A DNA stretch of 64,000 bases, from contig NZ_QWDD01000001.1 of the NCBI RefSeq assembly GCF_003722355.1, forward strand, positions 1,612,001-1,676,000. The letters are read 5' to 3'. A model generated the notes under the pieces. It made no database searches. It saw only the letters and a list, made by a program, of their open reading frames with translations, and had not been told where the DNA came from. The stretch is from Methylocystis hirsuta. Lineage in GTDB: Bacteria > Pseudomonadota > Alphaproteobacteria > Rhizobiales > Beijerinckiaceae. Of this stretch, positions 26,530 through 30,589 are shown piece after piece. Each line of letters starts with the position of its first letter. The first letter of the stretch is position 1. A program made the translations under genes and the position numbers.

Positions 26530-26574
26530 TGGCGCGAGAGACGGGACTTGAACCCGCGACCTCCGGCGTGACAG
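26530..26574 (-). other. Duplicated 3' half of tRNA-Asp (att-like site, left end of island)
   Basis: These 45 bases match the 3' part of the intact tRNA-Asp at 30513-30557 at 44 of 45 positions, in the same orientation. The match runs from the anticodon loop to the CCA end and then stops abruptly. There is no 5' half, so this is not a functional tRNA. Such partial tRNA copies mark the far end of elements integrated at a tRNA 3' end. Confidence 0.85.
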
Positions 26575-26759
26575 TCTGGAGGACTATCCATCCATAAGCG
26601 GGCAAAGGGCGGCCTTTTCGCGCGGGAAAGTTTCCCGCCATGCGGCCGCTTCACACAGCATCTCTCTTGGAGAAGAGCTCCAGCGTCTGCCGTTCCGATT
26701 GGCAAGCCGATTGATGGCGAGCGTTCAAGGCGCGAATTGGCTGCTAAATCGTAATCAGA

Positions 26760-27206
26760 TTAGCTTACGCCTCCCTCATTCTCTAGGGCGTCAACGACTT
26801 GCCACGTCTTCAGACCAACGATGCCGTCGATGTGTAGGCGGTAATCTTGCTGCAACTTCTTGACTGCTGCTTCAGTCATGGCGCCAAAGCGCCCGTCGAC
26901 TCCGCCGGCGTTGAAGCCGACGGCGCTCATCCGGCTCTGCAAGCGACGGACAGGTAGGCCAGTCGAGCCGACCTTCAGCACCGGATGGCTTTGATCAGCT
27001 TCATCAATGTTGATCCACGTAATTCGGCCAACCACGCCATCAACTGCGATCTCCCGCGCCTGCTGAAACTTCTTAACTGCGCTCTCAGTTTTCGCCCCGA
27101 AGACTCTATCAACGGGGCCAACATCGTATCCGAGAGCCTTAAGGGCCTCTTGCAGGTCCCGCGCGGCGGGATCACTAGATCCTTTCTTCAATATCGGTTC
27201 TGCCAT
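26760..27206 (-). CDS. Peptidoglycan-binding-repeat protein 1 (two PG_binding_1-like domains)
   Basis: A 148-residue protein made of two PG_binding_1-type three-helix repeats and no catalytic domain. Repeat 1 has AARDLQEALKALGYDVG, then FGAKTESAVKKFQQA and DGVVGRITW. Repeat 2 has VRRLQSRMSAVGFN, FGAMTEAAVKKLQQDY and DGIVGLKTW. There is no signal peptide or membrane span, so export by the Sec route is not predicted. The ATG at 27206 follows GGA; a TTG at 27224 is less likely. It is the last of four similar genes on the minus strand. Its GC content is lower than that of the core genes. Confidence 0.82.
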   Translation of the reverse strand: MAEPILKKGSSDPAARDLQEALKALGYDVGPVDRVFGAKTESAVKKFQQAREIAVDGVVGRITWINIDEADQSHPVLKVGSTGLPVRRLQSRMSAVGFNAGGVDGRFGAMTEAAVKKLQQDYRLHIDGIVGLKTWQVVDALENEGGVS

Positions 27207-27281
27207 GGCATGCCGTCCTATCAAATAATATGAGCCCGGTTGGCCTTCGGTGTTTTTCCGATGACTACCTCGAAGCCGACG

Positions 27282-27743
27282 CTAAAAAGAAAGCATGCTG
27301 CTCACCAGAGCCTGCCAAGTGACCGGACCAACGATTCCGTCTACTTTTACGGAAGGGATGTCGAGCGAAAGCGCTTGCTGAAACCCACGCACTGCCGCAT
27401 TCGTCACGGGTCCGAAAATTCCATCGACTTGCGGTCCGTTGCTCGGATCGCCAGACAAGTTGCGGAACTGAAACTCTTCCTGCACGCCCCTAACCGCGTC
27501 GCCCTGGCTTCCGTCTTTGACCTCCAGGACAAGAGCCGACCAAGTTCTCGGGCCGACGATCCCATCCGCCGTTAACCCCTGGCGAGCTTGAAATGCTTGC
27601 ACCGCGGCTTCGGTCTTCGGACCGAACACGCCGTCAACGACAACGCTATGTCCCCGCGCGCGCAATAGAAACTGCAGCGTCTTAATGGGATGTTCGCTGG
27701 AGCCGGTTTTGACCACTGGCCAAGGGCTGATGCTGCCGGACAT
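27282..27743 (-). CDS. Peptidoglycan-binding-repeat protein 2 (two domains)
   Basis: A 153-residue protein with two PG_binding_1-like repeats. The first includes HPIKTLQFLLRARGHSV, DGVFGPKTEAAVQAFQ and DGIVGPRTWSAL. The second includes VRGVQEEFQFRN, DGIFGPVTNAAVRGFQ and DGIVGPVTWQAL. There is no signal peptide, transmembrane segment or enzymatic domain. The DG(V/I)FGP.T and DGIVGP.TW words are nearly identical to those in its neighbours, so the set probably arose by gene duplication. It lies 75 bases from the next gene. Confidence 0.82.
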   Translation of the reverse strand: MSGSISPWPVVKTGSSEHPIKTLQFLLRARGHSVVVDGVFGPKTEAAVQAFQARQGLTADGIVGPRTWSALVLEVKDGSQGDAVRGVQEEFQFRNLSGDPSNGPQVDGIFGPVTNAAVRGFQQALSLDIPSVKVDGIVGPVTWQALVSSMLSF

Positions 27744-27851
27744 TCATGCCTCCCCGCAATATTAATGGAATAAAATTTTTATGGGCGCCTGGTTGAAGAT
27801 GACCGTGGCGGTCGACGTGGACTGCGTACCGAGTTTGCAGGCATGAGGGCG

Positions 27852-28914: not shown

Positions 28915-29118
28915 TCAGCTTAGCTCCAGAAGCAGACGCCACACCGATCGGCGAGGGTGAGTGATATAAAATCCGTCAAGAGCGGTGGCGCGCGCGATAG
29001 GCACAGCCGGTACGGGTGCGGAATCGCAGCTGACGCTGAGTTGGCCCAGTGCGCTGACCATCAGCGTGTCGCCTTCCCACCAGAAAAAAGGCCGGGGCGC
29101 TGTCGATTTCAGTTTCAA
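28915..29118 (-). CDS. Possible small protein overlapping the end of the spermidine-synthase-like gene
   Basis: A 67-codon open frame starting with TTG at 29118, whose start overlaps the TGA of the preceding gene (TTGA). The translation contains FFWWEGDTLMVSALGQLSV then CDSAPVPAVPIARA, which reads like a folded beta-rich segment rather than random sequence. I recognise no family and see no strong ribosome site. The coupled start is the main support. Confidence 0.3.
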   Translation of the reverse strand: MKLKSTAPRPFFWWEGDTLMVSALGQLSVSCDSAPVPAVPIARATALDGFYITHPRRSVWRLLLELS

Positions 29119-29828
29119 TTAAGATTGGCGTTCTGTTGCATCTGAGGTGGCGAATCGAGACGTGTCGCGATCCAGATGACGTGCCGCGCGCCGCCACGTT
29201 GGCCGTTGGCGCGCACCTTGACTTCATCCACGCGGAACCCGGCCTTGCGAAGACGCGATGTGAAATTCCGACCCGGCCCCGATGACCAGACGGCCAACAC
29301 CCCATCACGGCGCAGCGCCTCGCGAGCCGCCCTCAATCCTTCAATATCGTAAAGTGCGTCATTGGCTTCGCGAGTCAGGCCCTCGGGGCCATTATCGACA
29401 TCGAGAAGGATTGCGTCATAAGTCGAGCGGCCAGAACGGATCAGGCCCCCAACGTCACCTTCCTCGATGCTGACGCGCGGATCCGTCAGGCTGGCGCCGA
29501 AGACGTCCGCCATCGGACCGCGCGCCCAGGCCACGACCGCCGGAACGAGTTCGGCGACAATGATCCGCGCTTTCGCGCCGAGGACGTCAAGCGCGGCGCG
29601 CAGAGTGAAGCCCATCCCCAGCCCGCCGATCAGAACGCGCGGCTGTGGGCGCGCCTGAATTCTTTCGCAAGAGAGCGTGGCGAGCGCCTCCTCCGAGCCG
29701 CTGAGGCGACTGTTCATCAGTTCGATATTGCCCAACGTGATCGAGAATTCTGCGCCGCGACGCTTGAGGCGGAGTTCGCCCTCGCCGCCGGGTATCGGCG
29801 CTGTGTCGAGCAGGGTCCAGGGAATCAC
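29115..29828 (-). CDS. Spermidine-synthase-like protein (Rossmann methyltransferase fold)
   Basis: A 237-residue protein with the spermidine synthase/SAM-methyltransferase fold: VLIGGLGMGFTLRAALDVLG is motif I, IIVAELVPAVVAWARGPM carries the acidic post-I residue, and YDAILLDVDNGPEGLTREAN is the motif equivalent to the aminopropyltransferase active-site loop. DGVLAVWSSGPGRNFTSRLR is motif III-like. Homologues are often labelled spermidine synthase or spermine-like proteins; the true substrate is unknown. There is no partner decarboxylase. It lies in the tRNA-bounded island. Confidence 0.75.
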   Translation of the reverse strand: MIPWTLLDTAPIPGGEGELRLKRRGAEFSITLGNIELMNSRLSGSEEALATLSCERIQARPQPRVLIGGLGMGFTLRAALDVLGAKARIIVAELVPAVVAWARGPMADVFGASLTDPRVSIEEGDVGGLIRSGRSTYDAILLDVDNGPEGLTREANDALYDIEGLRAAREALRRDGVLAVWSSGPGRNFTSRLRKAGFRVDEVKVRANGQRGGARHVIWIATRLDSPPQMQQNANLN

Positions 29829-30139
29829 TGATAACTCTCCGTTTCGTTGGGAAGCGCTTCATGCGTCGACATGCGACGACCTAAATTGCGCTCAATTCCG
29901 CAGTTCGCGCGGAGGCTGCAAAGCGCCCGTAGCAGTCATTAGTGCGTATGGCAGTACGAGCAAATGCCGATTCAACAACCGAGCTGCTAGTGCTAGCGCG
30001 TTGGAGTGCACCGGGGGGGGGTGGCGCTATGCGGATCGAGTTGTCGAAATCTCCAATTTCCGAAAATTGAAATCTACGCATCTCGACCTCGACAACAAGA
30101 CGTCTCGTCAAGGCGCCGGAATGGGCGAGGTGGTGCGCC
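29829..30139. other. Non-coding stretch in the island with a G9 tract
   Basis: About 310 bases where no open frame looks like a protein. A run of nine G is at 30013-30021. The area lies upstream of the spermidine-synthase-like gene and leads into the helicase remnant. It may itself be decayed coding sequence. Confidence 0.4.
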
Positions 30140-30420
30140 GCGACAGTCGCCGGGAATGACGCCGGGCTTGCTCCGCTCGTCGACGCAATCGAATCCGGTG
30201 CGGTTCTCTCAGACGAACTACAATCAGTTTTCGAATTTTCCTATGCGCGGTGGTTCGCCGATAAAATTGTTAATGAAGACGAGGTTCTCAGCTCATTCCT
30301 CGCCGTGCGGCAGGAAGCTGCCATTGAAGCATTCGTCGCCGCTGACAAGAGAGTTCCGAACTTTCGAAGCAGATTGTCCGCGCACGCATGAATCGTCAGG
30401 GCAGGGGCTGAGCGCGGTCA
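30140..30420 (+). pseudogene. Remnant of a large AAA/superfamily-1 helicase (DUF4011/DUF3320 type), frameshifted
   Basis: The frame ending at 30391 reads GLAPLVDAIESGAVLSDELQ then SVFEFSYARWFADKIVNEDE and VLSSFLAVRQEAAIEAFVAA. I recall this YARWW...PVLR.F...H...I..F pattern from the very large helicase-like proteins with DUF4011/DUF3320 domains, often found in defence islands. After DKRVPN the frame turns to unrelated sequence, but a one-base shift restores LSKQIVRAR, the expected continuation, so a frameshift is visible. Only about 90 residues of a protein normally well over 1,000 remain. It lies right beside the tRNA-Asp 3' end. The family call rests on memory of the motif. Confidence 0.5.
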
Positions 30421-30512
30421 GGTCATAACCTAACGCCTGTGCTCTCTAATACGTAATACGTTACACCACGACGCCTCAAAGGCGCCCCTAGTTTTATAAC
30501 TAATTGATTAAA

Positions 30513-30589
30513 TGGCGAGAGAGACGGGACTTGAACCCGCGACCTCCGGCGTGACAGGCCGGCGCTCTAACCAACTGAGCTACTCCCCC
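30513..30589 (-). tRNA. tRNA-Asp (GTC)
   Basis: A 77-base cloverleaf on the minus strand. The acceptor stem is GGGGGAG with CTCTCTC (two G-U pairs), followed by discriminator G and an encoded CCA. The D arm is GCTCAGTTGGTTAGAGC. The anticodon stem-loop is GCCGGCCTGTCACGCCGGA with anticodon GTC. The T arm is GCGGGTTCAAGTCCCGT. G73 and GTC identify tRNA-Asp. Its 3' half is duplicated at 26530-26574. Confidence 0.97.

Follow-up and report, generated by a model that had tools for sequence, protein, structure and literature searches.

Islander recognises tRNA-targeted islands as a tRNA gene accompanied by a displaced 3' fragment, with the island spanning 2-200 kb and an integrase gene required (PMC4383910). 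Cis-mobilizable elements (CIMEs) have lost their integration and transfer genes and kept attL and attR (PMC5704250). Within Methylocystis, a paper on strain SC2 describes two putative phage-derived islands. We found no report of this tRNA-Asp site in the open-licence literature on Methylocystis islands, tRNA islands and IMEs, as far as the available parts of those texts go. The available part of a paper on hotspots in S. meliloti contains no word starting with "Asp", a search that other spellings may escape.

The locus described here lies in a 64,000-nucleotide stretch of the genome of the methane oxidiser Methylocystis hirsuta, hereafter called the window. It consists of a 3938-bp segment (26575-30512) between an intact tRNA-Asp gene and a displaced copy of its 3' half. 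The segment is like Islander-type islands in the order and orientation of the fragment, its 3.9-kb length and its anticodon-loop type of crossover, but it has no matched integrase gene and therefore fails the integrase filter (PMC4383910). Measured against CIMEs, it is alike in keeping both att sites without a tRNA-Asp integrase match, and no transfer gene was recognised among the genes that could be named; ICE or IME parentage and mobilisation are putative (PMC5704250). We consider it likely that the segment is a decayed, integrase-less tRNA-Asp island of CIME-like form, inserted by an integrase that was subsequently lost.

An insertion at tRNA-Asp

ARAGORN detects a single tRNA in the window, tRNA-Asp(GTC), which an Rfam scan of 20000-36000 places at 30516-30589. 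The features that define the locus are as follows.

26017..26529, strand not assigned: left chromosomal flank, which directly follows the single tRNA-Asp in relatives
26530..26574, minus strand: the tRNA-Asp 3' half in displaced position, covering linear positions 33-77 with 44 of 45 bases identical; one att site
26575..26582, minus strand: element-side arm CCTCCAGA, matching the inverse of the right arm GCCGGAGG at 6 of 8 positions
30505..30509, minus strand: AATCA motif just past the CCA end, common to most island-bearing genomes
30513..30589, minus strand: intact tRNA-Asp, whose 3' half (30513-30557) is presumed to be island-derived
30792..34594, plus strand: right chromosomal flank with sdhE (Sdh5 domain) and mfd, named by inspection

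The repeat comprises the last 45 nt of the tRNA in the same orientation. Its first base (linear position 33) opens the 7-nt anticodon loop CTGTCAC, which occupies 26568-26574 in the displaced copy, its last base is the A of CCA, and the copies differ only at linear position 72 (window 26535). They share an exact run of up to 39 nt, compared with 13-14 nt elsewhere in the window. A search of the 4.2-Mb genome for this 39-nt core, allowing up to three mismatches, returned these two places only, with no control matches. Alignment and the genome-wide search thus agree with the initial annotation, which had reported a copy of this identity and orientation extending from the anticodon loop to the CCA end.

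We compared 400 bp on each side of the locus with ten relatives of our choosing that carry an identical tRNA-Asp; the genus compared was Methylocystis, and the set includes Methylocystis sp. H62 (G005), M. rosea SV97 (G006), M. suflitae NLS-7 (G014) and a Methylocystaceae MAG (G017). In seven of the ten (G005, G006, G022, G016, G004, G019 and G017) a single tRNA-Asp joins the right and left flanks, with identities of 85-98% on the right and 70-81% on the left. The left-flank match of G004 covers just 47 bp of the 400-bp comparison; that of G022 begins only 149 bp outward in the same test and is continuous from window position 25594 in a separate comparison. The left flank finds no match beside tRNA-Asp in G014, G018 and G001; G014 has an insert of its own at this tRNA and a left-flank match to the window at a greater distance. 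When the window was aligned with four of the empty-site relatives, it passed from unrelated sequence into the tRNA at the anticodon loop and, past the displaced copy, continued into the relatives' downstream flank. Because the flanks are joined at a single tRNA-Asp in relatives and the alignment switches at the anticodon loop, we conclude that 26575-30512 is an insertion. The locus has the marks of a tRNA island: an intact tRNA with a 3' fragment downstream in the same orientation, and a segment that is absent where seven relatives join the flanks at one tRNA, the other three having no left flank there. Strains lacking the segment had been predicted to show exactly this junction, and the opposite case, in which every relative carries the same genes in the same place, is not what we observed.

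Base composition is not relied on; a foreign composition is usual for tRNA islands but not a requirement. The initial annotation had noted that parts of the segment are lower in GC than the flanks and had expected a composition profile to support foreign origin; the segment is mildly low (0.589 versus a background of 0.624, sd 0.025), but 9.9% of the 587 overlapping windows of the same length that make up the own-genome background are equally low, which makes the argument weak.

The core site of a tyrosine recombinase is expected to form an inverted repeat about the loop. The window's site reads CCTCCAGA-CTGTCAC-GCCGGAGG (arms 6/8), whereas the displaced copies of G046 and G047 read CCTCCGGC-CTGTCAC-GCCGGAGG, a perfect inverted repeat (arms 8/8); the arms of G014 and G002 match at 5/8. 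Since 1.2% of window 8-mers reach 6/8 and 5.9% reach 5/8, we give weight only to the arms of G046, G047 and the window. The window's match is modest, and the segment ends partly resemble those of integrase-bearing elements. AATCA starts at an offset of 3-5 past the CCA of the intact tRNA in six of seven genomes with island evidence (G010 lacks it), in 7 of 29 genomes without detected islands and in none of the seven empty-site relatives (Fisher p 0.005; 0.012 without G000). The underlying table has 37 rows, among which G012 has no flank, and leaves out G015 and G054. As the motif was chosen after the sequences had been viewed, this association is support rather than proof.

Integrases and islands at tRNA-Asp in the genus

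The integrase query was a 365-aa protein of G002 that matches PHROG phrog_1 (E 4.7e-18) and has a weak Pfam match under the cut-off. It matches 6 of the 39 genus genomes at E<=0.001, five of them strongly. Two of these integrases are intact or nearly so (full length in G002, residues 1-363 in G046), that of G047 is broken into three pieces with stops, and those of G053 and G010 are fragments. Each of the five is located 3' of tRNA-Asp, 82-86 bp from it or, in G002, about 5.1 kb; weaker matches turn up in G052 and at another position in G046. The query matches nothing in the window (E<=1e-3) or anywhere else in the genome of M. hirsuta. The reported absence of an integrase from the segment therefore holds for relatives of the G002 protein, the single query used.

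The tRNA-Asp 3' core is matched in 38 of the 39 genus genomes and more than once in five (G000, G002, G014, G046 and G047). The spacing of the paired matches is about 58 kb in G002, 30 kb in G047 and 3.8 kb in G014, and the G046 pair is split between contigs. The islands of G047 (~30 kb), G002 (~58 kb) and G046 (on separate contigs), whose cargo was viewed in part, share with the segment the tRNA, the displaced 3' copies and the core CTGTCAC, and differ from it in carrying an integrase gene (broken in G047). The 3.8-kb insert of M. suflitae NLS-7 (G014; L154:635-4548), which is independent of that in the window, resembles the segment in site, in size and in having no tRNA-Asp integrase match; its displaced copy is identical at 51 of 53 positions. 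It differs in bearing outer-membrane-efflux-like and multicopper-oxidase-like genes and has no DNA match to the window's insert.

Further pieces of tRNA-Asp were seen in these genomes. G002 has a 29-nt 5' piece (L151:6129-6157) about 2.1 kb from its displaced 3' half (L151:8305-8353), as if another copy of the tRNA had been split, and another contig of G014 holds a 40-nt piece (L158:9680-9719, 92.5%). An apparent intron-split tRNA-Asp in G020 was rejected; the interruption is a run of N.

Gene content of the segment

Five genes, which occupy 2406 of the 3938 bp, and one gene relic were recognised in the segment.

26760..27206, minus strand: gene A, 148 aa, two PG_binding_1 stretches
27282..27743, minus strand: gene B, 153 aa, two PG_binding_1 stretches
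27852..28337, minus strand: gene C, 161 aa, two PG_binding_1 stretches
28351..28635, minus strand: gene D, about 94 aa, one PG_binding_1 stretch
29115..29828, minus strand: spermidine-synthase-like gene of 237 aa, whose Pfam Spermine_synth match (E 2.3e-4) falls slightly short of the cut-off
30158..30388, plus strand: relic of a DUF3320-type gene, 77 codons, similar to plasmid and genus frames

Pfam finds no catalytic domain in genes A-D. The PHROG matches of genes A-C are mostly phage endolysins, which is best explained by the common peptidoglycan-binding domain, and neither genes A-D nor the spermidine-synthase-like gene match anti-phage models. Orthologues of the array (window 26713-28839) are present in five relatives, with gene A protein identities of 90-93%. 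Homology to the array starts 47 bp past tRNA-Phe in G005, G006 and G017 and 360 bp past it in G019; next comes a gene that by inspection looks like an L,D-transpeptidase. G014 has the array at two contig ends in another context, beside two large proteins that have no match in Pfam or NCBIfam. Around the array, the four relatives that have it by tRNA-Phe show no displaced copy of that tRNA; an insertion at tRNA-Phe in these genomes is a candidate reading rather than a demonstrated one. The array is 87.0-89.8% identical in DNA to its counterparts in these four relatives, compared with 94.7-95.3% for sdhE-mfd (over fewer columns for G017). Pairs among the relatives show the same pattern (89.2-94.1% versus 95.2-97.2%), so inheritance of the array within the group is possible.

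The spermidine-synthase-like gene has NCBIfam matches far under the cut-off. It is matched in 23 of 41 genomes, including 17 of 25 of the same genus (own genome counted), and occupies at least three contexts in relatives other than that of the window. Because both the array and this gene are found elsewhere in relatives, their joint arrival in one island is not required. The claim that the enclosed genes are all accessory and unusual stands for accessory; "all unusual" is overstated, given the distribution of the spermidine-synthase-like gene in the genus and the 1925 relatives of gene A (E<=0.001) among 2131 candidates.

The DUF3320-type relic matches nine plasmid records at 36-44% identity, eight of which are annotated DUF3320. 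Among the 38 other genus genomes it is matched in three, best in G046 (67%), where the match lies inside a frame of 1983 codons; it also matches the anti-phage candidate PDC-S37 (E 9e-6). Its truncated state in the tRNA-proximal part suggests deletion from something larger, and it is the only pointer to a larger parent element; no transfer-gene relic was identified. Stretches 26575-26712 and 29928-30512 have no DNA match among the loci compared, a database without the window's own-genome loci.

Two observations concern the window outside the segment: a 111-aa Xre/MbcA/ParS-type antitoxin-like gene at 22677-23012, and a Met/Gly/His-rich protein (34958-35914) adjoining a multicopper oxidase (36025-37668), a pair that perhaps serves copper handling.

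Extra matches at tRNA-Phe

Extra tRNA-Phe matches confined to the 3' half occur in 9 of 39 genomes (G000, G003, G004, G009, G016, G018, G047, G053 and G054), of which those of G000 and G016 were viewed; tRNA-Phe looks like another island site. M. hirsuta has a tRNA-Phe (L069:18450-18525) followed by an open frame that, by inspection, resembles a P4-type integrase. A decayed 3' piece of tRNA-Phe lies a long way off and faces the other way (L070:8409-8452); together they suggest an island plus a chromosomal inversion. In G016, 2.6 kb adjoining a transpeptidase-like gene separate tRNA-Phe from a partial copy (L226:1366-4179).

Origin of the segment

In the account that we favour, a tyrosine recombinase would have inserted a genomic island into tRNA-Asp, at its anticodon loop. 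By strand exchange within the 7 bp of this loop, the 3' half that the gene originally had would have come to lie at 26530-26574, and the tRNA gene would have been rebuilt with the island's own 3' half. Later deletions would have removed the integrase and most of the cargo, leaving between the two att sites the four-gene peptidoglycan-binding array, the spermidine-synthase-like gene and the truncated DUF3320-type gene. We infer that the insertion was made by the same integrase family as in relatives, that the integrase was lost after arrival and that an incoming element might still use the site. What speaks against a G002-type integrase as the maker is that the one-query search detects in the segment no remnant of an integrase that would link the two. 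The finding itself is sound, and the simplest account of it rests on a well-known kind of event. Fragments of tRNA genes can also arise by duplication; nothing was found in favour of a chance resemblance, or of a mere doubling of the tRNA's end with no island, and such an origin would be extremely improbable: seven relatives have the flanks joined at a single tRNA, and the 44/45 identity has its edge at the anticodon loop. On these joined flanks, the two-copy result of the core search and the 39-nt exact run, we reject it.

The initial annotation had left open whether the island decayed or was moved by an integrase in trans. We regard as unlikely an arrival without an integrase, in which a resident integrase, acting in trans, moved a small unit of cargo and att sites. 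Such movement would fit the second insert, ~3.8 kb long, that M. suflitae carries at this tRNA with other cargo and no tRNA-Asp integrase match, the ~2.6 kb between tRNA-Phe and its partial copy in G016, and the fact that the array adjoins tRNA-Phe in four relatives but tRNA-Asp in the window. However, with no relative of the tRNA-Asp integrase in the genome the helper would have had to leave, and the truncated DUF3320-type gene suggests deletion from a larger element; that gene and the occurrence of intact, broken and fragmentary integrases beside tRNA-Asp favour decay. Less probable still is that a tRNA-Asp island inserted and decayed and that the array and the spermidine-synthase-like gene were recruited later by ordinary chromosomal recombination. 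Both modules do reside at other places in relatives, the latter gene in several contexts, and the array is less similar to its counterparts than sdhE-mfd is, a difference that inheritance within the group may also produce; against later recruitment, direct traces such as repeats at the module borders, which were mapped by similarity only, are lacking. It is tempting to speculate, doubtful as the idea is, that the tRNA-Asp and tRNA-Phe sites of Methylocystis repeatedly hold 2-4 kb of integrase-less cargo that travels in trans between hotspots, the array being one such module.

Decay of a tRNA-Asp island thus remains our preferred reading, and the locus allows occupied and empty tRNA-Asp sites to be compared cleanly within Methylocystis, at a site linked to an integrase family in the genus. 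It also shows a single gene array that adjoins tRNA-Asp in M. hirsuta and tRNA-Phe in four relatives. Software that requires an integrase gene before calling an island, such as Islander (PMC4383910), would reject both the segment and the similar insert of M. suflitae.
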